From the IMG/VR virus record IMGVR_UViG_3300025736_000234, positions 1 to 22,085 of that record: 22,085 bases of DNA; one strand, given 5' to 3'. The notes beneath the pieces were generated by a model. The model was given only the letters and a program-made list of their open reading frames with translations, was not told the DNA's origin and ran no database searches. Source of the DNA: a virus. The number at the start of each line of letters is the position of its first letter. Within the stretch, counting starts at the first letter, position 1. The position numbers were made by a program, and so were the translations under genes. Positions 3,983 through 21,451 of the stretch are shown here, piece by piece.

Positions 3983-4066
3983 ATTGCTTGCCCTTCTTTT
4001 AATCAGGCTCGGGTCTGGTGTTTGTAATTTGTGTTAATGCGTCCAGTTGCCCGAGCTTGATTGTTA

Positions 4067-5115: not shown

Positions 5116-5499
5116 TTATAGTTGTGTCTCAAGTTTGAGTTTGAGAGCCAGGAGTTCGTCAGCTGTCTTCTTTGGCGCGTTTGGGTAGTCCTCTATCATC
5201 AACACTGCCTTTGCGAAGACCTCAGGGTATTCTGTTTCTAACCAGTGGCTTGCCTCTATCGGGTTTTTATGCCACCACTGGAGGTGACAGTGCATACAGA
5301 GGGTTTTTAGGTTCCAGGAGCAGAACTCGTAGTTGGGACACTGGCCCTTCGGAATTATATGGCTGCAGTGAAGGGCGCTAGAGCCTGGCAATTTTTTACC
5401 ACAGTGCCAACAGGTGTAATTGTCTCGTTTTTTAATTGTTGTTGCCACCACTTTCCAAAGTTGGTCTTTAAGTTTTGTGATTGTGAATTTTTTTGCCAC
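5116..5499 (-). CDS. NinG-like HNH endonuclease family protein
   Basis: A zinc-bound HNH-type domain: CWHC (first knuckle), then SALHCSHIIPKG (the conserved His of the beta strand) and NLKTLCMHCHLQWW (Asn and the second CxxC knuckle), followed by a helical tail (ASHWLETEYPEVF). The order and spacing resemble phage NinG/Rap recombination proteins; HNH proteins are also used at cos sites together with terminase. The frame is open to 5586, but the upstream residues are encoded by a repetitive CGACAA region, so I place the start at the GTG at 5499-5497 (127 aa). It lacks a visible ribosome-binding site. It lies convergent to TerS and divergent from the prim-pol gene. Confidence 0.65.
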   Translation of the reverse strand: MAKKFTITKLKDQLWKVVATTIKKRDNYTCWHCGKKLPGSSALHCSHIIPKGQCPNYEFCSWNLKTLCMHCHLQWWHKNPIEASHWLETEYPEVFAKAVLMIEDYPNAPKKTADELLALKLKLETQL

Positions 5500-5572
5500 A
5501 TAATCAGAGTAGCATAGTTTTGTAAGAAACGAAAATCGTTTGCCGCTAGGCAATGGAGCTTTGGAAGCGAAG

Positions 5573-5603
5573 CGACAAAGCGACAAGATTTGAGTTTCGA
5601 CAA
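5573..5603 (+). repeat. Three CGACAA direct repeats
   Basis: CGACAA occurs at 5573-5578, 5581-5586 and 5598-5603, two of them within GACAAAG, immediately upstream of a consensus promoter. They could be regulator sites or iterons, or may be chance in a short low-complexity patch. Confidence 0.35.
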
Positions 5604-5613
5604 AGTATTGCTC

Positions 5614-5643
5614 TTGACAATTTTAAAACCTAATGCGTATAAT
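5614..5643 (+). promoter_or_regulatory. Consensus sigma-70 promoter (TTGACA-18-TATAAT)
   Basis: Both hexamers match the consensus perfectly with an 18-base spacer. Transcription would begin near 5650 and read through the inverted-repeat region into the prim-pol gene, giving a leader of about 440 bases. It shares CTCTTGACA with the promoter at 5855. Confidence 0.75.
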
Positions 5644-5854
5644 GCCCATATCACCTCTAACACAAGTGACACCTTAACACTCGATACGATTTATCAGTTT
5701 CTCAGCTCCATAGGATCTTCGAAGCCTTCTAAATCCTCATCGAAAGTAAGCACAAACCAAGGAGTGACTGGGGGTTCTAGGGGGGATATAGTTTGATACA
5801 CTTTATATTTTTTTCCCCAAGACAAATATCCTATAATCGTTCAAAAATATACTC

Positions 5855-5884
5855 TTGACACCTATTCTGTTTCTGTGTTATTGT
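5855..5884 (+). promoter_or_regulatory. Second rightward promoter (TTGACA-18-TATTGT, extended -10)
   Basis: A perfect TTGACA is followed after 18 bases by TATTGT, which is preceded by TGT as an extended -10. The start would be near 5891, so the transcript begins just before the inverted-repeat cluster. Confidence 0.65.
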
Positions 5885-5898
5885 AGTTATGTACTAAG

Positions 5899-6081
5899 TT
5901 ATTTAACAAATAAATAAACTCCTTTTTATTCACAGTAAATCGGCAAGCCTAGTTGAAGCGGCTTATCCAGAAAAGAGGTCATTTTTTTTGTAGAAAAAAC
6001 TCTTTCGACCCCCCCACAATAGCTTCAACACTATGACCTTTATGGAGTGGGGGGATCCAAGGAGTTTTTTTATTTAACAAA
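5899..6081 (+). repeat. 12-bp direct repeats flanking the inverted-repeat cluster
   Basis: TTATTTAACAAA occurs at 5899-5910 and again at 6070-6081, exactly bracketing the paired segments at 5916-6067. Such flanking copies could be a remnant of an insertion or a functional part of an origin or RNA. Confidence 0.6.
5916..6071 (+). ncRNA. Candidate structured leader RNA or origin with crossing helices
   Basis: An outer 9-bp pairing (5916-5924 AAACTCCTT with 6059-6067 AAGGAGTTT) closes the region and is followed by a run of T to 6071. Inside are a hairpin AAGCC/GGCTT (5945-5949/5960-5964), a hairpin AAAGAG/CTCTTT (5972-5977/6000-6005) extended by T/A pairs, and CCCCCCAC/GTGGGGGG (6010-6017/6047-6054). 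The loop of the first hairpin holds GTTGAAGC (5952-5959), complementary to GCTTCAAC (6022-6029) in the loop of the third. AGGTCAT (5976-5982) is complementary to ATGACCT (6033-6039) in that same loop. This could be a kissing-loop RNA controlling prim-pol expression, or a single-strand origin. The pairings are seen directly; the function is inferred. Confidence 0.5.
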
Positions 6082-6087
6082 GCAAAA

Positions 6088-7983
6088 ATGGTAAAACAAA
6101 ACAACATACCACAGGAAATGAAGGACATCCCTAATTGGATCTGTTGGAAAAAAGAATGGTTGCCTAAAGATGAGCGCTGGACCAAAGTTCTTTACAACGC
6201 AAAAACTGGGTCTCTTGCCAAATCCAATGATAGTTCGACATGGACCTCGTTTAACAACGCTTTTGAGGTCTTTGGTGGCGGTGGATATACCGGAGTTGGC
6301 TTTGTCTTCACTGAGGAAGCAGGTATTGTTGGTTTAGACCTAGATCACTTGAAAAAAAGCCCTGAGCGAGAAGCAGTAGCAAAGGATCTTATTAAAAAAT
6401 TTGATACTTATACTGAAATTAGCCCATCTGGCTCTGGCTACCATCTATATTTTAAAGCTAAGAAAAAATTTAAAAAGGGAAAGGGGCTTAGAAGCGAACC
6501 AATTTTCGGAGAGGAAATTGAAACCTATTCGAAAACAAGATTCTTCACTGTTACTGGAAATATTTATGGCGATAAAAAAACTGTAGAAAATCGCCAAGAA
6601 TACTATGACTGGCTTGGAAAAAAATATTTTACCAAAAAAGAAGTTGAGCAAAAAAGTATTGCACCAACAGAAATAATCCACTTTGAGGATCAAGAAATTA
6701 TTAACAAGATTACTAGGGCAAAAAACTCTAAAAAATTCTTAGACTTATATAACAACAGGAATTTAAGCGACTATCCAGAGTATTTTAGAGATGGAAAACT
6801 AGATTTATCATCAGTTGATATGGCCCTTGCTGGAATTTTAGCATTTTGGAGTAGTGATCGAGAACAAATTAGACGAATAATGATGACTTCTAAGCTTGTT
6901 AGAGAAAAGTGGAACAGACCAGACTATCTTTATCGTCCAATAGATGAGGTTTTATCAAGTCCTGGCGAAAAATACACTCCGCCGATAGAAATTGGACCAG
7001 CACCAAGGCTGGTTGAGCAAGAAGATTTTAAAACAATAGAATTTAATGACTTGCCAGATACCTGGGATGACGAAGAATGGATTGTTAAGGATTTATTTTG
7101 CAAAGGAGGGTTGTTTAACTTCTCCGCCTACAATAAAACTGGTAAAACAGCGTTCTTAACCTGTTTTTACAAGGCTTTAGCCGATAATGACGAGCAATTT
7201 GTTGGTAAAGACATCAAGAAAACCAAGATTTTACATATTTCAGAGGAATACGAGCGTTCCTGGATCAAAAAGAAGCGAGATTTTGGCAAAGCTGATGTGA
7301 CATTGGCAATGAATCCATTTCCAAAGAGCAAAAGTGTTGATGAATGGCGGCAAAGACTTGATATTGTGCTTAAAAAGTGCAAAAAAGAAGGTTTTGAGAT
7401 GGTGGTCTTTGATACCATTGACCAATTTTGGGGAGTAAACGAGGAAAATGATGCAGTTGATACCAGTACTAACATTGAGGCTCTAAGAATTTTAACGAAA
7501 GAGGGCATTTGTGTTGTGTCGGTACTTCATACTAGGAAAAATGGTGGAGTTGTTGGTAAAGACACTAGAGGTTCTGGCGCTATTAACGATAAAGTTGATG
7601 GCTTAATCTCTTTTTCCAGAGTTGATGAAGAAGATATTACCAATAACAAGAGAATTTTATCAGTTGGCAATGGCAGGTTTTATGACGAGCCATATGTTTG
7701 GGTGGTTGAGTTTGATACCACCACTAAAAAATACTCCTTTGTTGCCAACAACACATTTGAGGCAAAAGAAAAAGAGGAAGAAAAGAAACTTATGGATTTT
7801 ATTCCAGTGCAAGAGGCAGAAGCTATGAGTTCATCGCAAATTTATAAAGAAATGAAGGAGTCTGATATTGCACACTATGGTCACACAAAAATAAAGAGGA
7901 TTTTATCTAATTTACTTAATAAAGACATTGTTTGCAGAAAACCTGTTGGGAAAACAACTAAGTTTTGGAGAAAATTCTTATGA
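6088..7983 (+). CDS. Prim-pol / RepA-like helicase fusion (631 aa)
   Basis: A likely replication enzyme that makes primers and unwinds DNA. The N-terminal archaeo-eukaryotic primase-polymerase domain (about 1-165) shows GLDLDH (metal-binding Asp84, Asp86), SPSGSGYH (His119) and RFFTVTG (Arg151). Residues about 240-292 are the helical PriCT-like segment (MALAGILAFW to REKWNRPDY). A RecA-fold helicase domain follows, with Walker A KTGKT (350-354), Walker B VVFDTID (Asp442) and a sensor-like LHTRKN (481). The Walker A opens with Ala instead of Gly. A winged-helix-like tail begins near 580. The domain order resembles phage NrS-1-type prim-pols joined to a RepA/AAA_25 helicase. The start has no Shine-Dalgarno site; the nearest AAGGAG is 23 bases upstream, inside the paired leader. 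Two promoters lie upstream. Confidence 0.85.
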   Translation: MVKQNNIPQEMKDIPNWICWKKEWLPKDERWTKVLYNAKTGSLAKSNDSSTWTSFNNAFEVFGGGGYTGVGFVFTEEAGIVGLDLDHLKKSPEREAVAKDLIKKFDTYTEISPSGSGYHLYFKAKKKFKKGKGLRSEPIFGEEIETYSKTRFFTVTGNIYGDKKTVENRQEYYDWLGKKYFTKKEVEQKSIAPTEIIHFEDQEIINKITRAKNSKKFLDLYNNRNLSDYPEYFRDGKLDLSSVDMALAGILAFWSSDREQIRRIMMTSKLVREKWNRPDYLYRPIDEVLSSPGEKYTPPIEIGPAPRLVEQEDFKTIEFNDLPDTWDDEEWIVKDLFCKGGLFNFSAYNKTGKTAFLTCFYKALADNDEQFVGKDIKKTKILHISEEYERSWIKKKRDFGKADVTLAMNPFPKSKSVDEWRQRLDIVLKKCKKEGFEMVVFDTIDQFWGVNEENDAVDTSTNIEALRILTKEGICVVSVLHTRKNGGVVGKDTRGSGAINDKVDGLISFSRVDEEDITNNKRILSVGNGRFYDEPYVWVVEFDTTTKKYSFVANNTFEAKEKEEEKKLMDFIPVQEAEAMSSSQIYKEMKESDIAHYGHTKIKRILSNLLNKDIVCRKPVGKTTKFWRKFL

Positions 7984-9249: not shown

Positions 9250-10089
9250 ATGGATGCCCAAATGGGTTTTAAACCCGGTTATAAAAAATTTATTGAAGAC
9301 TTCTTTCAAATCATAGACAAAGAGCAAAAGATTGTTGATTTTAAGCTTAATGCTATCCAAGAGAAGTTCGTCAGTCACGACTCAAGCACAAAAAGAGATG
9401 TTATTTTAAAAGCTCGCCAGCAGGGTTTCTCGTCTATCATTTTGGCAATATTCACCGTTGATTTTTTAATCAAAAACAATACTCGCAACATTATTGTTTG
9501 TGATGAAAAAGAAAATGCTGAGGAAATGCTTGAAAAAGTTAAGTTTTATATTGAGAGTTACGAATACAAGATGAATGACAAGCACAAGGGCTTTAAAGTT
9601 CCCCTTAAATACTCAAGCAAGTACGAGCTTTACAATGAATTCACGAAAAGCCGTTATACTATAGGTACTGCATTAAAGACCGAATTTGGTCGAAGCAAAA
9701 CCATAACTAATTTGCACCTCTCTGAGGCTGCTTTCTATAGAAATATGGAAAAGTTATTGGCTGGAGCTATGCAGGCGGTTGTTCCTAATGGGCGTACCAT
9801 TATTGAAACTACTGCTAACGGCTTTAATTATTTTAAGAACTTTTGGGATAGATCTGTAAGAGGGGAAACTGGATTTAATTCAATTTTCTATAAAGGCAGT
9901 GAATTTTATTCAAAAGAGCTGTTAGAACAAAAGAAAAAAGAATTAGGCAGACAATTTAATCAAGAATACCCAGAAACAGCCACTGAGGCATTTATTACCT
10001 CTGGTGAATGTTATTTTGACGGAGAGGCATTAGAATGGTTAATAAAAAATGCTGTGACCCCACAGCCGTTTAATTTAGGAATAATGTGA
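9250..10089 (+). CDS. terL: Large terminase, ATPase half (279 aa)
   Basis: The ATP-driven DNA-packaging motor domain. Visible are the Walker-A-like KARQQGFS (54-61), Walker B NLHLSEAAF with catalytic Glu159, and the coupling motif ETTANG (186-191). It ends with the usual EYPETATEAFITSGECYF segment and a short linker. An intact TerL is normally 450-550 aa with a nuclease domain; here the frame ends at 279 and the nuclease is a separate protein starting in the overlapping GTGA. Together they give about 497 residues, and nothing between the domains seems to be missing. The product probably docks at the portal as a complex with the next protein. Confidence 0.85.
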   Translation: MDAQMGFKPGYKKFIEDFFQIIDKEQKIVDFKLNAIQEKFVSHDSSTKRDVILKARQQGFSSIILAIFTVDFLIKNNTRNIIVCDEKENAEEMLEKVKFYIESYEYKMNDKHKGFKVPLKYSSKYELYNEFTKSRYTIGTALKTEFGRSKTITNLHLSEAAFYRNMEKLLAGAMQAVVPNGRTIIETTANGFNYFKNFWDRSVRGETGFNSIFYKGSEFYSKELLEQKKKELGRQFNQEYPETATEAFITSGECYFDGEALEWLIKNAVTPQPFNLGIM

Positions 10090-10742
10090 AGAAAATAAGA
10101 CAATTTAGAGAGATTGAGGTCGGAGAGTTCTTTGTTGTTGGTATTGATACCAGTGCTGGTGGTTTAGATTATTGTGCCGCTCAATTTATATCGGTAGATA
10201 GGCTAGATGTGCCTCTTGTTTATCATAGCAAGCTTTTAGCAACAGAAATGACTCCAGACATTGTCAGAATCCTTGAAAGACTCTACGACATCACTGGAGT
10301 AAAGCCTGTGGTAGCTTATGAGCGTAATAATGGCGGTGTTTTTGAAATGGAGCGCCTGGCTCGTTTAAATAAGAAGCAAAAATTCAAGCCATATCAAATG
10401 ATTCAATATGGTCGCAACAAAGATCAGAAAACAATGATGAAACTTGGTTGGGATACCAATAGCGCTACCAGACCAAAGATGTTAAGTGACTTAAAAGAAG
10501 CAATCGACTCAAAATTATTTAGAGTTTATGATTCTCCAACGATAGAGGAGTTATTTTCTTTTGTTGTCATACAAACAAGTGGATCTTGGAGGGCGGCTGC
10601 CGAAACTAACGCTCACGATGATCTAATTATGAGTTTAGCAATCGCCTGGCAGCTTTATCACACAGAATCTAAACCAGAATCATCTGAAAAAAAGAGAGTT
10701 GTCTCTTTAAATAGGTTTAGAACAAAAAGATGGGCAATATAA
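10086..10742 (+). CDS. terL: Large terminase, nuclease half (218 aa)
   Basis: An RNase H-fold nuclease that cuts concatemeric DNA. Acidic residues expected for two-metal catalysis are present: Asp21 in VVGIDTSAGGLDY, Glu79 in AYERNNGG, and Asp178/Asp179 in AHDDLIMSL. The start is a GTG overlapping the ATPase stop (GTGA) with AGGA 5 bases upstream, so it is a proper coupled start. TGA recoding is ruled out because the upstream frame would stop again three codons later at TAA. The split falls in the linker between domains. Confidence 0.85.
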   Translation: MKKIRQFREIEVGEFFVVGIDTSAGGLDYCAAQFISVDRLDVPLVYHSKLLATEMTPDIVRILERLYDITGVKPVVAYERNNGGVFEMERLARLNKKQKFKPYQMIQYGRNKDQKTMMKLGWDTNSATRPKMLSDLKEAIDSKLFRVYDSPTIEELFSFVVIQTSGSWRAAAETNAHDDLIMSLAIAWQLYHTESKPESSEKKRVVSLNRFRTKRWAI

Positions 10743-15839: not shown

Positions 15840-17636
15840 ATGAACAAGTCAGCACTTTGTATAATTGTTGAGGGCGATCAAAAGCTTGATGGCTTAAAAA
15901 TCGCAGTTGATAGTGCTAAAGACTTTGTTGATGAAGTTTGCATTACAGCTAATGGGAAATCCACTACAGAGACAAAGGAATATTGCAAAAAGAACGGCTT
16001 TAAGTATTCTTTCCTAGAATGGAAGGACAACTTCGCAGAACAACGGAATTTTAACTTTGCTCAGGCTAGTATAGATGTAGATTACATTTTATGGCTTGAT
16101 AGTGACGATCAACTTGTTGGTGGAGAGTATCTACCAAAGATTTTTGATCTTGCTAGACGAAAAGAATATGACCAGGTGTTTTTTACCTACTGGTACGGCA
16201 ACAGATTTGTTGAAGGAAAAGAGAGAAACTATGAGAATCTAATTGATATTGAGCTTTATCATAATAGAGAACGAATAATCAAACGAAATAAAATTAAGTG
16301 GGTCGGTCGCTTACACGAGACCCCAGTAGAATTTGATGGATCTAAATTAAACTATACCGGGATTAAACACACGCTAGAAGATCCCCACCCAGTTTTTCCA
16401 ATAGCCGTGCTTCACCGCGATGCCACGAGACACTCTGATGCCGAAAATGAGGTTAGGGGTGACAGAAATAAGCGCTTACTGGAGAAACAACTAAATGACG
16501 AGAGGGAAGCTGGAAAAATAGACCCGAGAACCGTCCTTTATCTGATGAAGATTTACGCCTACTCTAAAAGCGATAGTTTACACAAGAAGTGTATCGCTCT
16601 GGGTGAGGAATATTTAACCAAATCTGGTTGGGATGAAGAAAGAGCAACCGCACTAATCTTAGTTTCAAGTTGTTTTTATTATCTTGGTCATTATGAGAGA
16701 GCTAAAGCAACACTGCTTGGAGCACTTGACGAGTGGCCACAGAATAAGGAGATTTATCTGGCGCTTGCCAATGTTAGTTTTTCTCTTGGTAAATATGATG
16801 ATATGAAAACATATATGGATATTGCCAGCGCAATAGAACCAGATAAAAAAACAGCAGGAAATAGAAACATTATTGACTGGAAATTTAAGTCTTTAATGTT
16901 AGACCTCAAATATAATCTAAATGTTGTTAAAAAGATTAAAAAAGCCTTTGAGGCAGCGGAGAAAATATATGAAATTGAACCAAGTGAAAAAAACCTCGAG
17001 CAACTCAACTACCTCAGCGACCTTTCTGATTACAATGATGCTTGCGAGCATATTGACCTTTTTACTAGGTATCTGGCTAAAGCCAAGCTTTATGATGAAT
17101 TAAACGCCGTTTTAGATAACTTCCCTGCTAAATTTAAAGAATTACCTTTCTACAACAAGCTAATCAATAGTTATAGCAAGCCAAAAACTTGGGCTGACAA
17201 TGAAATCTGTTATTACGCCAGTTTTGGTGGAGCTCATTTTGAGAAGTGGGATCCTAGTAGCTTAAAAGATGGTATTGGTGGTAGTGAGACCGCTGTTATC
17301 AAGCTGGCTAAAGAATGGACCAGTCTTGGTTTCAAAGTTACTGTTTATGGTGATCCTAAAAAAGAGGGAGTTTACGATGGAGTTACCTACAAGAGTTTCA
17401 GGCGTTTCAACCCAAAGGATAGGTTTAACATTTTTATCCAGTGGCGCTCTGGCTTCTTAGCAAACAAGATTGTTGCTAAAAAGTTCTTTGTAGATTTGCA
17501 CGATGTATTTAGCGAACAAGATTATTTAGACATATTGCCAAGCATTGATAAGATTTTTGTTAAAAGCCAGTATCAACGTAGCTTGGCTCCTAATATTCCT
17601 GACGATAAGTTTGTGATTATTAGCAATGGGATTTAA
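15840..17636 (+). CDS. GT2-TPR protein ending in the first half of a GT4 (598 aa)
   Basis: Residues 1-200 are a GT2-like glycosyltransferase: a Rossmann start, FAEQRNF (65-71), the metal-binding WLDSDD (Asp87-Asp90) and the WVGRLHE segment (154-160). Residues about 240-430 form a helical repeat region resembling TPRs. Residues 454-598 match the N-terminal lobe of a GT-B/GT4 enzyme, with KDGIGGSET (476-484) for donor binding and a final VKSQYQRSL ... VIISNGI, where a full GT4 would continue to its second lobe. The gene stops right there, and the second lobe begins in the next gene 2 bases later in another frame. It would add sugars to an unknown acceptor in the cytoplasm. Confidence 0.75.
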   Translation: MNKSALCIIVEGDQKLDGLKIAVDSAKDFVDEVCITANGKSTTETKEYCKKNGFKYSFLEWKDNFAEQRNFNFAQASIDVDYILWLDSDDQLVGGEYLPKIFDLARRKEYDQVFFTYWYGNRFVEGKERNYENLIDIELYHNRERIIKRNKIKWVGRLHETPVEFDGSKLNYTGIKHTLEDPHPVFPIAVLHRDATRHSDAENEVRGDRNKRLLEKQLNDEREAGKIDPRTVLYLMKIYAYSKSDSLHKKCIALGEEYLTKSGWDEERATALILVSSCFYYLGHYERAKATLLGALDEWPQNKEIYLALANVSFSLGKYDDMKTYMDIASAIEPDKKTAGNRNIIDWKFKSLMLDLKYNLNVVKKIKKAFEAAEKIYEIEPSEKNLEQLNYLSDLSDYNDACEHIDLFTRYLAKAKLYDELNAVLDNFPAKFKELPFYNKLINSYSKPKTWADNEICYYASFGGAHFEKWDPSSLKDGIGGSETAVIKLAKEWTSLGFKVTVYGDPKKEGVYDGVTYKSFRRFNPKDRFNIFIQWRSGFLANKIVAKKFFVDLHDVFSEQDYLDILPSIDKIFVKSQYQRSLAPNIPDDKFVIISNGI

Positions 17637-17638
17637 TT

Positions 17639-19153
17639 ATGAAAAAGCTTAATTTTTTTTATGGAAGTTCTTATGATAGGTCTTTAGATATTGTTTTGTT
17701 TCTGTGGCCAGACATTGTTAAAAAATATCCAGAAGCTAAACTTAATGTTTGCTACGGCTGGGATATGTTTTTGAAAGTTGCCAGTAAAAATCCTGAGCGA
17801 ATGGAATGGAAAGAAGAAATGGACAGGCTAATGGAACAGCCTGGAGTTATTCACCACGGCAGACTTGGAAAAGAAGAATTAAAAGCCGTTAGAAAAGAAT
17901 GTGGTATTTGGTTATACCCGACATATTTTACTGAGATTAACTGTATCAGCGCTCTAGAGGCTCAAAAAGATGGTCTTGTGCCTGTTGTTACTAATTTAGC
18001 AGCATTAAAAGAGACAGTCGGTAGTGGTTTCAAGATAGAGGGTGACATTAGAGATATAAAGATACTCGAGGAAGTTAAAAAAGCCGTTTTTAGGCTACTA
18101 GACGAGCCCGACCTCTGGGAAAAAGAGAGTAAAAAGGCTAAAAAGTTCGCTAAAAGCTACTTTACCAACAAAATTGCTAAAAAGTGGGTGCCATTCTTTG
18201 AAAAAGAAGATAAGCAACCGCTAGTAACAATTTACACTCCAACAATTCGTGATGGGTGGTGGAATGTGATGGCAGACAATATCTCAAAACAGACTTACAA
18301 AAATATTGAATGGATAATTGTTGACGATGGCAGAGAAGATAGAAGCGAAGTTGCCGAAAAGTACGGACTTGAATACGAAATTAAAATTAAATACCTTAGA
18401 GGTAAGAAACGAAAAACTAAACGGACTTATTCTCTAATCAATGCTAACAATACAGCGATTGAAGCGGCGGAAGGGGAATTATTTGTTTTCCTGCAAGACT
18501 TTGTTTTGATGCCCGAGGATGGAATTGAGAGGCTGGTTGATATTTACAAACACAACCCTAAATCTTTCATTTCACCAGTCGATCAATATAACGAGCCAGC
18601 AATTAAACCGAATCAGTCAGATAAAGAAGACTGGTTTGATGGTAAGACTGGAGCTGATGTTATTGGTAAATTTATGAGAGAGAGCATTAGACAACAACAC
18701 ATTGGTTTGAGAAAAAGTTTTAAGATAACTGATTTTGAACAGAACTTTGGGGCAGTACCAACAGCTTTGCTAAAATCTCTTGGTGGCTACTATGAATTCT
18801 TTGATGAAGCGCTTGGCTTTGATGATACCGAGATAATTTTTAGAGCTGATAGGCTTGGATACAATCTGATTGTTGATGATAGCATTGTTGCTATTTGCAT
18901 TGACCACTGGGGAGCGCTTGGTAAAGACGAGGGTGGCACAAGTGTCAACAGAACTCGCAGACTTAATGATCCTAGAATGGCTTGGATGATTAAACAAATC
19001 GAAAGTGGAAAACTACCAGTAGTTAGAACTCAAGAGATTGACGATAGAATTGATTTACAGTATGAGGTGCCAGAGGAAATTGATGATGAACACTGTGTAG
19101 AGTGGGTAAGAGCGAATGTGAATAACATTGTGGAAAAGTGGGGTGACTTATGA
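17639..19153 (+). CDS. Second half of a GT4 fused to a GT2 (504 aa)
   Basis: Residues 1-185 are the C-terminal (donor-binding) lobe of a GT4: NFFYGSSYDRSLDI (5-18), HHGRLGKEEL (72-82) and the E-x7-E motif with Glu99 and Glu107 in YFTEINCISALEA. A GT2-like domain follows (about 195-420), with VTIYTPTIRDG, WIIVDDG (Asp229, Asp230) and LFVFLQD (Asp287). A one-base change would join it to the upstream gene as a protein of about 1,100 residues. The TAATTATG junction lacks a clear ribosome-binding site. It could work as a two-subunit enzyme with the previous protein. Confidence 0.75.
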   Translation: MKKLNFFYGSSYDRSLDIVLFLWPDIVKKYPEAKLNVCYGWDMFLKVASKNPERMEWKEEMDRLMEQPGVIHHGRLGKEELKAVRKECGIWLYPTYFTEINCISALEAQKDGLVPVVTNLAALKETVGSGFKIEGDIRDIKILEEVKKAVFRLLDEPDLWEKESKKAKKFAKSYFTNKIAKKWVPFFEKEDKQPLVTIYTPTIRDGWWNVMADNISKQTYKNIEWIIVDDGREDRSEVAEKYGLEYEIKIKYLRGKKRKTKRTYSLINANNTAIEAAEGELFVFLQDFVLMPEDGIERLVDIYKHNPKSFISPVDQYNEPAIKPNQSDKEDWFDGKTGADVIGKFMRESIRQQHIGLRKSFKITDFEQNFGAVPTALLKSLGGYYEFFDEALGFDDTEIIFRADRLGYNLIVDDSIVAICIDHWGALGKDEGGTSVNRTRRLNDPRMAWMIKQIESGKLPVVRTQEIDDRIDLQYEVPEEIDDEHCVEWVRANVNNIVEKWGDL

Positions 19154-20124
19154 GAATTTTAGTAACTGGATCATCTGGCTTAATAGGATCGCACGTTGTT
19201 AAAAAACTTATAGAAGAAGGAAATGAGGTTTTTGGTATATCAAGATCAAACGACAACTTGCACGATCAGGAAACCAGATTTAACATTGATTTATTAGATA
19301 AAAAAGCTACTACCGATGCTGTTGAAAAAATAAAGCCAGAGGTTGTCTATCACTTCGCAGCTAACGCTGCTGAGGGGAAAGCACAATTTTCACCAATAGA
19401 TATTACTCAAAGAAACATTGGAATATTTTTAAATGTTTTAGTACCATCAATAAATAATGGAATGAAGCGCTTTATTTTTACATCTAGTATTGCTGTTTAT
19501 GGTTCGATTGAAATTCCTTTTAAGGAAAGCGATCCTCCAATCCCTCAAGATATTTATGGCATCAATAAGATGGCTTGTGAACAAACCATTAGGGTACTGG
19601 CAAAGGTACACGACTTTGAATTTGTTATTGCTAGACCACACAATGTTTATGGTCCAGGACAGAATATGAGAGACCCATACCGAAATGTTGTTACTTTATT
19701 TATGAACTCACTTCTCAAAAACAAACCATATTCAATCTTTGGCGATGGCACAATGAAGCGCTGTTTTTCCTACATTGATGACGTAGCAGAAGTTTTAAAG
19801 AAAATGGCAACAGCGCCAGTCGCAGGTTTAACTGTTAATGTTGGTAGTGAGAAGGTCTACACGATAAATGAGCTCTCAGACACAATTAGGGAGGTTTCAG
19901 GTATTGATATTGAGCCTAACTATTTGCCAGACAGACCTCAAGAGGTTCACACGGCAAAGTCAGATCATTCAATTTGCAAAATAGTTTTTGGTTATAGTGA
20001 TACAGAGTTTTTAAAAGGAATTAAAGAAACCTGGGAGTGGTGCAAGCAACAAGGACCACAAGAACAAGAATTTACAGAGGTTGAAATCCCAAGTAAAAAG
20101 TTGCCTAAAACCTGGAAGAAATGA
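19150..20124 (+). CDS. NAD-dependent sugar epimerase/dehydratase (324 aa)
   Basis: An extended short-chain dehydrogenase of the nucleotide-sugar epimerase/dehydratase type. It has the NAD-binding GSSGLIG (7-13), the catalytic Ser112/Ser113 in FTSSIAVYG and Tyr136-xxx-Lys140 in IYGINKMACEQ, and substrate-side ARPHNVYGPGQ. Length and motifs match GalE/WbpP-like enzymes, but the exact reaction cannot be told from sequence alone. The start overlaps the previous gene by four bases (ATGA). It likely supplies the nucleotide-sugar donor for the neighbouring transferases. Confidence 0.8.
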   Translation: MRILVTGSSGLIGSHVVKKLIEEGNEVFGISRSNDNLHDQETRFNIDLLDKKATTDAVEKIKPEVVYHFAANAAEGKAQFSPIDITQRNIGIFLNVLVPSINNGMKRFIFTSSIAVYGSIEIPFKESDPPIPQDIYGINKMACEQTIRVLAKVHDFEFVIARPHNVYGPGQNMRDPYRNVVTLFMNSLLKNKPYSIFGDGTMKRCFSYIDDVAEVLKKMATAPVAGLTVNVGSEKVYTINELSDTIREVSGIDIEPNYLPDRPQEVHTAKSDHSICKIVFGYSDTEFLKGIKETWEWCKQQGPQEQEFTEVEIPSKKLPKTWKK

Positions 20125-20762
20125 AAGTAATTTATAGACTTTGCGACATTGAATCAACTAATCCTCCTCCAATTCTTAGGGGATCAAAACTAGCTCTTAA
20201 TCTTTATTGTCTTGATAAGTTTGTTGAGGCTTTTAAAGAGGTAAAGCCAGAGATTATTTTCTTATGCGATCACACCAGGAACTATGATCAAACATTAAAA
20301 GATAATATCCCATTTAAGTTTTCAACAGAATATACTAATGGTGGAATTAACTCGACCTATCTTAGATCTTTTGAAATTGCTAAAGATTTAGATGAAGATG
20401 TGCTTTTCCAGGAATGTGATTATGTTTACAAACCAGATACGGGATTAGAGATTGTTGAGGCCATCAAAGAATTTGGGTTTATTAGTCCTTATGACCATCC
20501 AGATAAATACCCAAGTGATAATGTTAAATTGAGATGGTTTAACGGTCGGCATTGGAGAAATTCTCCATCAACAACAATGACTTATGGTACTACTAAAGAA
20601 AATATAAAAGAACATTATGAATTGCTAACAAAGCACGGCTATTTAGATCAACAGATGTGGCTAGAACTAACTGCCACCACTGGCAAAGAACTTTGGACTC
20701 CAATATCAACTATTGCAACGCATATGGTAGCAAGTCAAATTGCTCCAGGAATGGAATTTTGA
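20121..20762 (+). CDS. GT-A-like glycosyltransferase homologue (213 aa)
   Basis: Not obvious as a known transferase, but the order of segments fits a GT-A fold: a Rossmann-like start, KPEIIFLCD, the LFQECDYVYKPD region (Asp100 in place of a DxD) and the ISPYDHPDKY motif (122-130), which I have seen in uncharacterised GT-like proteins of viruses and bacteria. The position between the epimerase and a GT2, with 4-base overlaps on both sides, supports a sugar role. The catalytic DxD is degenerate (ECD), so it may be an atypical or inactive transferase. Confidence 0.5.
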   Translation: MKVIYRLCDIESTNPPPILRGSKLALNLYCLDKFVEAFKEVKPEIIFLCDHTRNYDQTLKDNIPFKFSTEYTNGGINSTYLRSFEIAKDLDEDVLFQECDYVYKPDTGLEIVEAIKEFGFISPYDHPDKYPSDNVKLRWFNGRHWRNSPSTTMTYGTTKENIKEHYELLTKHGYLDQQMWLELTATTGKELWTPISTIATHMVASQIAPGMEF

Positions 20763-21451
20763 AAGTAAGTATTGTAATGCCTTGTTTGTTAAGAAAAAAA
20801 GAGCACAAAGACGTTGTAATTGAATGTCTTGAATCAGTGAAGCTATTTTCACCAGGCGCCGAGCTAATTGTTGTTGATGATGGTTCACCTCTTTCAACAA
20901 AGTTTTTAAATAAATACGCTGATTTAGTTATTCATCACACTAAAAGTAAGGGAATAGCTTTTGGCTGGAATAATGGAATTAAGCTTGCCAAAGGAGACTA
21001 TATTGTCGTGATAAACGATGACATTGTTGCCAGACCAGGATGGATTGAGGCGATGTTAAAAGGCTTTGAAACAGAAGGAGCTATGGTCACAGCGCCATCA
21101 GTTGAACATATGGCTGCAGGAACTGGAATAAAAGTAGACCACACCTGGTTTCCTGGATCTTGTTTTATGTTGAGTAAAAAAACAATTAAAGAAATTGGTT
21201 ATTTTGACGAACAATTTGCTCCATTCAATTATGAAGATGTTGATTACTGGACTAGAATTTGTAAAGCAGGTGGCAAGATGGTTAGAAATTATGCGATCCA
21301 GGTAAGGCATAAAGAGGGCGATGTAATTCACAAGTTTGAAGGTGGTGGAGAAATTAACGATGCTAATAGAGACCGATATATAAAAAAGTGGGGTTTTGAC
21401 CCAATTAAGGTTTTCTACTGGAAGACCGATGTTTTCCCCTGGCAAAAATAG
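20759..21451 (+). CDS. GT2 glycosyltransferase (230 aa, TTG start)
   Basis: A compact GT2 with the GT-A motifs in order: VVDDG (38-42), the NDD metal site (86-88) and the catalytic-base region FNYEDVDYW (156-164). I choose TTG at 20759, which overlaps the previous TGA as TTGA and begins the KVSIVMPCL strand. The longer upstream reading covers the previous gene, and ATG at 20777 is a shorter alternative. It is the last gene of the cassette, and no terminator follows before the next promoter. Confidence 0.75.
   Translation: MKVSIVMPCLLRKKEHKDVVIECLESVKLFSPGAELIVVDDGSPLSTKFLNKYADLVIHHTKSKGIAFGWNNGIKLAKGDYIVVINDDIVARPGWIEAMLKGFETEGAMVTAPSVEHMAAGTGIKVDHTWFPGSCFMLSKKTIKEIGYFDEQFAPFNYEDVDYWTRICKAGGKMVRNYAIQVRHKEGDVIHKFEGGGEINDANRDRYIKKWGFDPIKVFYWKTDVFPWQK

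Follow-up and report, generated by a model that had tools for sequence, protein, structure and literature searches.

What is the function, if any, of a nest of crossing inverted repeats placed just before a primase-polymerase gene? The question is raised by the viral record IMGVR_UViG_3300025736_000234, whose 22,085 bases, taken as a whole, are called the window here. The first gene after the repeats (6088-7983, plus strand) encodes an NrS-1-like primase-polymerase (prim-pol) with an AAA ATPase (Pfam PF22763, 1.3e-11, and PF13481, 1.3e-12; PHROG DNA primase, 1.5e-63). An initial annotation, made from sequence alone, had described three complementary pairs in the order A-B-C-A'-B'-C' and had offered two readings of this arrangement, a compact, pseudoknotted RNA in which hairpins kiss or a single-strand replication origin used by the prim-pol.

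Every segment named there was found at its place. The element occupies positions 5945-6071 of the gene-coding strand, and its parts follow the order hp1 (with A in its loop), B, D, an internal loop, C, A' and B', C', D' and a T-run. Hairpin hp1 (5945-5964) has the stem AAGCC (5945-5949)/GGCTT (5960-5964) and a loop, TAGTTGAAGC, bearing strand A (GTTGAAGC, 5952-5959), which, according to the inverted-repeat listing and to the relatives, forms 8 bp with A' (GCTTCAAC, 6022-6029) in the loop of hairpin C. Strand B (5974-5982) pairs with B' (6033-6041) in the same loop, through a core AGGTCAT (5976-5982)/ATGACCT (6033-6039) that can be extended to AGAGGTCAT/ATGACCTTT, that is, to 9 bp including one G-U. 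Stem C joins CCCCCCAC (6010-6017) to GTGGGGGG (6047-6054), and stem D (inverted repeat I1) joins AAAAAACTCTTT (5994-6005) to AAGGAGTTTTTT (6059-6070), in such a way that D continues C and both together appear as 24 nt at 88% in the inverted-repeat listing. A run of seven T at the foot of stem D (6065-6071) provides an intrinsic-terminator-like 3' end, 16 nt 5' of the prim-pol ATG (6088).

This T-run and the distance from it to the ATG had been described correctly, without the likeness to a terminator being developed. By contrast, the claim that a 9-bp stem, 5916-5924/6059-6067, closes the nest failed in part. The letters are real, since AAACTCCTT and AAGGAGTTT are complementary and their pairing extends to 17 nt at 94%, but it was not seen as such in four relatives, all of which have the arrangement of 5994-6005/6059-6070, the conserved closing stem. 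The proposal of three hairpins held partly: A is in the loop of the small hairpin hp1, and no hairpin around B is conserved. The promoter proposed with a start near 5891 held as a consensus match (TTGACA-18-TATTGT with TG, 5855-5884, plus strand), and a sigma-70-like promoter with 12/12 consensus positions, TTGACA-18-TATAAT, is found at 5614-5643 (plus strand), also as a consensus match only. In addition, the MFE fold gives a weak hairpin, TTTATT-CAC-AGTAAA, at 5925-5939 (plus strand), the position of a hairpin, hp0, of the relatives, to which its homology is not shown.

Four relatives of the element were identified, so the family comprises five members, three of them similar to one another, on five phage contigs and each time immediately ahead of the gene that opens the replication module. 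Searches that took the window's terminase and SSB proteins as queries retrieved L006 and L035, in which, as in the window, an HNH gene on the other strand is followed by leader, primase, SSB and terminase, and whose leaders present the same order of elements with other letters. The L006 primase carries the Pfam domains Prim-Pol, PriCT_1 and DnaB_C and is 74% identical to that of L035, with no BLAST similarity detectable between primases of this type and that of the window. In both genomes the element directly follows an HTH gene and has no strong promoter of its own. A pattern derived from these two leaders detected L076, before whose leader a perfect TTGACA-18-TATAAT can be read. A covariance model built on L006, L035 and L076 (R1) was then run on 380 genomes from the phylum to which MAG nzgw467 belongs, and a fifth copy, L084, appeared on a phage-like contig within a bacterial bin; its portal protein is 35% identical to that of L076, and a promoter TTGACA-18-TATATT ends 7 nt before the conserved start of its leader. 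The genomes of the phylum searched are mostly of 0.5-1.2 Mb, from which we infer that the hosts are likely small-genome bacteria, probably Patescibacteria.

The first downstream gene varies among the members, being one of two unrelated primases or, in L084, a 61-residue zinc-ribbon-like ORF whose ATG abuts the T-run, with no primase directly following. The leader type does not track the primase: the prim-pols of the window and L076 are 57% identical and their leaders are unlike, whereas the leaders of L006 and L076 are alike and their primases unrelated. In all five members a T-run of 6 to 8 is located at the foot of stem D, and the start codon of the next gene lies within around 20 nt of it. 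A few letters are conserved across all four relatives, namely CGTC (5' end), TAC (loop of hp1) and AAT (before A').

The initial annotation had proposed to judge the RNA reading by covariation and by the presence of the helices in relatives, and the element passed this check, in such a way that the compact pseudoknotted RNA is supported by the homologues. In a plain sequence alignment of the four leaders without the window, 12 of the 30 nested pairs are changed on both sides and 95.8% of the cells are paired, a level that none of 500 shuffles reached and from which slid versions were likewise far off. Compensatory changes affect helices B and C and both small hairpins. For stem C, 8 of 11 pairs differ on both sides among the relatives; for the crossing helix B, whose letters are different in every relative, three pairs are changed on both sides in a sequence-only alignment of three leaders. 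Hairpin hp1 is present in the four relatives with compensating stems, and hp0 covaries among them (CTAC/GTAG, CTGC/GCAG, CTAGC/GCTAG and CTCAC/GTGAG). The support for helix A (GTGCAAGC/GCTTGCAC in three relatives and GGCAAG/CTTGCC in L084) is thinner than that for B and C, because A is invariant in three members and changed only in the window and L084. The non-Watson-Crick cells on the coding strand comprise nine G-U against one A-C, which favors an RNA read together with the gene.

The alignment of the window leader with the others by MAFFT fails, and therefore its membership rests on structure. When strands were swapped between leaders, those of A, B, C, D and hp1 from the window paired fully only with their own partners; for B, 9 bp were formed with its own B' and at most 4 bp with those of other leaders. 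Model R1, blind to the window, gave 5946-6073 (plus strand) as its top match there, with 19.8 bits (E 0.0017) and a runner-up of 7.7 in an unfiltered search of both strands, and model R2, which adds L084, raised the same match to 30.8 bits (E 6.4e-6), with a runner-up of 9.5. The alignment inside this match misplaces hp1, and because of that we also applied a descriptor without any sequence letters, consisting of hp1 around A, the crossing A and B with partners in the C loop, stem D and the T-run. In 654 kb of fetched sequence, on both strands, it detected exactly the five leaders, with scores of 85.5-88 and the next at 60.5, and it found zero matches in 40 shuffles of the whole window. As the descriptor was written once the five leaders were known, its evidence lies in the score gap and the empty shuffles, and not in the matches themselves.

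The idea of chance inverted repeats, suggested by the AT-rich region with its homopolymer runs and by the occasional crossing triples of similar score in shuffled windows (1 of 40 reached a score of 64), is all but excluded by the homologues, the covariation and the descriptor controls, and the A-B-C-A'-B'-C' score itself was reached in 1000 dinucleotide shuffles per leader only once for L084 and never for the window, L006, L035 or L076. Taken with the covariation, these data make it very likely that the element is a structured RNA whose letters were nearly all replaced while the fold was retained across five members.

The family is likely a previously uncatalogued one among phage structured leader RNAs, having no Rfam match and with the literature search limited to open PMC papers. 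No model of Rfam 15, which includes C4 antisense RNA, STAXI and riboswitches, matched the window at its gathering score, and a sub-threshold scan of the L006, L035 and window leaders returned only chance-level matches, mostly to microRNA models; the similarity of leader DNA to known phages and plasmids was also at chance level. Further genomes related through their portal, terminase or primase (L010-L015, L056-L061) yielded no element in their leaders, and the descriptor matched nothing in five annotated phages whose primases are related (FtMidnight, Paracoccus R3, MT836114, MW202867 and IME-EFm1). Among the pattern loci, in sets of 18 and 20, only L006, L035 and L076 were genuine, and the covariance-model matches in G154 and G416 were ordinary hairpins without A and B.

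Since the fold is kept while the letters are replaced and the downstream gene is swapped, the RNA itself appears to be under selection as a module for the control of phage replication. By inference, it is probably a switch for starting phage DNA replication. The simplest reading of its action is a conditional terminator, because the T-run stands at the foot of D in the five members and there is no room for another promoter so near the start codon. The sequence meets the criterion of an intrinsic terminator, since the hairpin contains GC and a T-run comes directly after it; termination itself is inferred, in the absence of transcript data. In nested models of transcripts halted after B', the probability of B/B' is 0.98 or more in four members, and that of A/A' is 0.96 in the window. 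In the full-length RNA the nested optimum is the complete terminator hairpin, whose closed apical part excludes A/A' and B/B' in the relatives. As these folds differ, two states are possible, a knotted loop and a closed hairpin.

As the most likely function we propose, without expression data and with our confidence evenly divided, that the element is a cis-acting attenuator in the replication operon's leader, that is, a conditional intrinsic terminator set by the formation of the crossing helices. The window RNA would start around 5891, on the same strand as the first gene of the replication module, and a share of the transcripts would end before the primase at the putative terminator formed by the D/C hairpin and the T-run. 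Early pairing of A with A' and B with B' is feasible because A' and B' are transcribed before C' and D', and this pairing would pin the loop and delay the zipping of the terminator, in such a way that read-through would turn the replication genes on. If A or B were held away, the local apical hairpin and then the whole terminator would zip, and the genes would be off. The choice between the knotted and the closed state would thus set read-through into the replication genes, the trigger being perhaps a phage or host protein, a small molecule or the speed of the polymerase.

Several objections to this attenuator can be raised. The family has few members, three of them alike, and for transcription, the 3' end and read-through there is no demonstration. 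An internal loop breaks the terminator stem, and the hairpin loop of around 30 nt is unusual for intrinsic terminators; a simple terminator scan, with a loop limit of 8, made no call. The D/C hairpin alone is possibly stable enough to terminate regardless of A and B, and the coexistence of the helices is not backed by energies from a pseudoknot-capable model. Finally, no mutually exclusive antiterminator helix is conserved across the five members, the candidates being a pairing between B and the tail, seen in three members, and, for the window, a 5'-strand pairing. In L006, L035 and L076, the tail of around 8 bases that includes and follows the T-run (TTTGTTA, TTTGTC and TTTGTTGG, respectively) can pair with strand B, best with the B of the same member, and could be a second partner for B in read-through RNA; this pairing was looked for and not seen in L084 and the window.

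A bolder version of the attenuator, which we consider less likely than not, makes of it a new class of phage switch, in which two crossing helices, a kissing loop and a pseudoknot, hold the loop of a terminator. In phages whose hosts have small genomes (probably Patescibacteria), co-transcriptional knotting would then choose whether the leader RNA is terminated or interchangeable replication modules are expressed. The A-B-C-A'-B'-C' topology within a terminator-like hairpin is unusual and offers a compact test case for co-transcriptional knotting governing termination, and the covariance model and the descriptor provide a handle for locating replication operons in uncultured phages.

The main rival, which remains possible, is that the terminated leader is a stable trans-acting small RNA of around 130-180 nt, with the replication gene expressed from read-through only, after the model of P4 CI RNA, IsrK or C4 antisense RNA. 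It is supported by the presence of a separate promoter immediately before the element in the window and L084, by the terminator-like end, by the indifference to the identity of the downstream gene, and by the precedent of phage leader RNAs that act in trans on replication or early genes (PMC4825925). Against it, there is no conserved exposed region for target pairing, since A and B pair internally and covary, and the elements of L006 and L035 come directly after an HTH gene and lack a strong promoter of their own.

A second alternative is a protein-binding leader, whose pseudoknot would be the binding site of a repressor, from phage or host, acting on the translation or transcription of the replication genes. 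The leaders of T4 gene 32 and of ribosomal proteins are precedents for repressive leaders of this kind, and the conserved loop and single-stranded letters of the four relatives, the compact fold and the position beside the start codon would agree with it. However, the relatives show no sequestration of a clear ribosome-binding site, the protein encoded first downstream is not the same in all members, and the similarity of the leaders does not follow that protein. As leader types and primase types are not coupled, autoregulation by the primase or by any first downstream protein is improbable, and we regard the whole alternative as unlikely.

A put- or EAR-like RNA, which binds RNA polymerase and makes it ignore later terminators, is very unlikely. 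The element is at the head of an early operon just past a promoter, as HK022 put is (PMC9378689), but put suppresses termination and the best conserved part here is a terminator-like hairpin with its T-run.

The other reading of the initial annotation, a single-stranded DNA origin or priming site used by the prim-pol, with the fold acting as DNA, was not supported and is also very unlikely. In its favor, the element adjoins replication genes in the five members, and STAXI, a pseudoknot motif that likewise occurs near DNA-handling genes, was proposed to act as single-stranded DNA (PMC2864571). Nevertheless, the element is retained before an unrelated primase (L006, L035) and without a directly following one (L084), and this lack of correspondence between leader and primase makes a prim-pol-specific origin improbable. 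The known recognition site of the NrS-1 prim-pol is 5'-TTTGGTTA-3', with GTG as a second reported site (PMC8718748); the former is absent from the window leader, and GTG is too short for such a search. The GC skew changes elsewhere, near 4000, where gene direction flips, and the T-run end and the G-U pairs suit RNA better, although G-T also forms in DNA.

We compared the proposed attenuator with known systems. The CI RNA of P4, from its seqA-seqC immunity leader, is also a phage leader RNA upstream of replication genes and acts by premature transcription termination, and IsrK of Gifsy-1 combines a terminated short RNA with a read-through mRNA (PMC4825925), akin to our proposal, but neither has a sequence or Rfam relation to the element. 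In P4 the RNA factor pairs as antisense with two complementary sequences, one on each side of it, whereas here A and B cross inside one molecule and the loop of the terminator-like hairpin carries both partners. The C4 antisense RNA (Rfam RF01695, targets a1/b1) is a phage RNA which, as here, has two separate complementary segments; it acts on a separate downstream target in another gene context, and cmscan returned no match to it at E values of up to 5. STAXI is also a pseudoknot near DNA-handling genes, including those for single-strand binding proteins (PMC2864571), but it is repeated two or three times, and the fold studied here is single, larger and triply crossed, with a terminator-like end. 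HK022 put is likewise a structured RNA that acts in cis from the beginning of early phage transcripts (PMC9378689), but it suppresses pausing as well as termination, whereas the element ends in a terminator-like hairpin. Attenuating riboswitches and leader attenuators share the folded domain with a last helix and a T-run just before the gene; unlike them, A and B pair with the terminator loop and are compatible with the terminator instead of competing for a strand, and no ligand or sensor is known for the element.

Other features were observed around the leaders. A 12-bp direct repeat, TTATTTAACAAA, brackets the window leader (5899-5910 and 6070-6081) in the manner of a target-site duplication and, as it is absent from the relatives, is likely an AT-rich coincidence. 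Promoter-like sites at L035:3398-3433 and L006:363-400 are near the ATG of the HTH (replication-initiator-like) gene, from which a near-leaderless mRNA is expected. An HNH endonuclease gene, on the strand opposite to the leader, precedes it in the window (5116-5586, minus strand), L035 and L076, and the end of this gene is present in L006. Between this gene and the leader there is a G-rich stretch in the two phages carrying an NrS-1-like prim-pol (GGGGGTTCTAGGGGGG at window 5769-5785 and GGGGGGTTTAAGGGGGGG around 10905-10925 of L076, minus strand), and a larger one is found near L035:2673-2697. The large terminase of the window is split into an ATPase ORF (9250-10089) and a second ORF (10086-10742) with a four-base overlap, and a similar split occurs in L076 (6360-7181 and 5708-6382, minus strand). 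After the capsid genes, positions 15840-21451 of the window hold a series of ORFs that resemble glycosyltransferases and epimerases in a by-eye reading of their translations.
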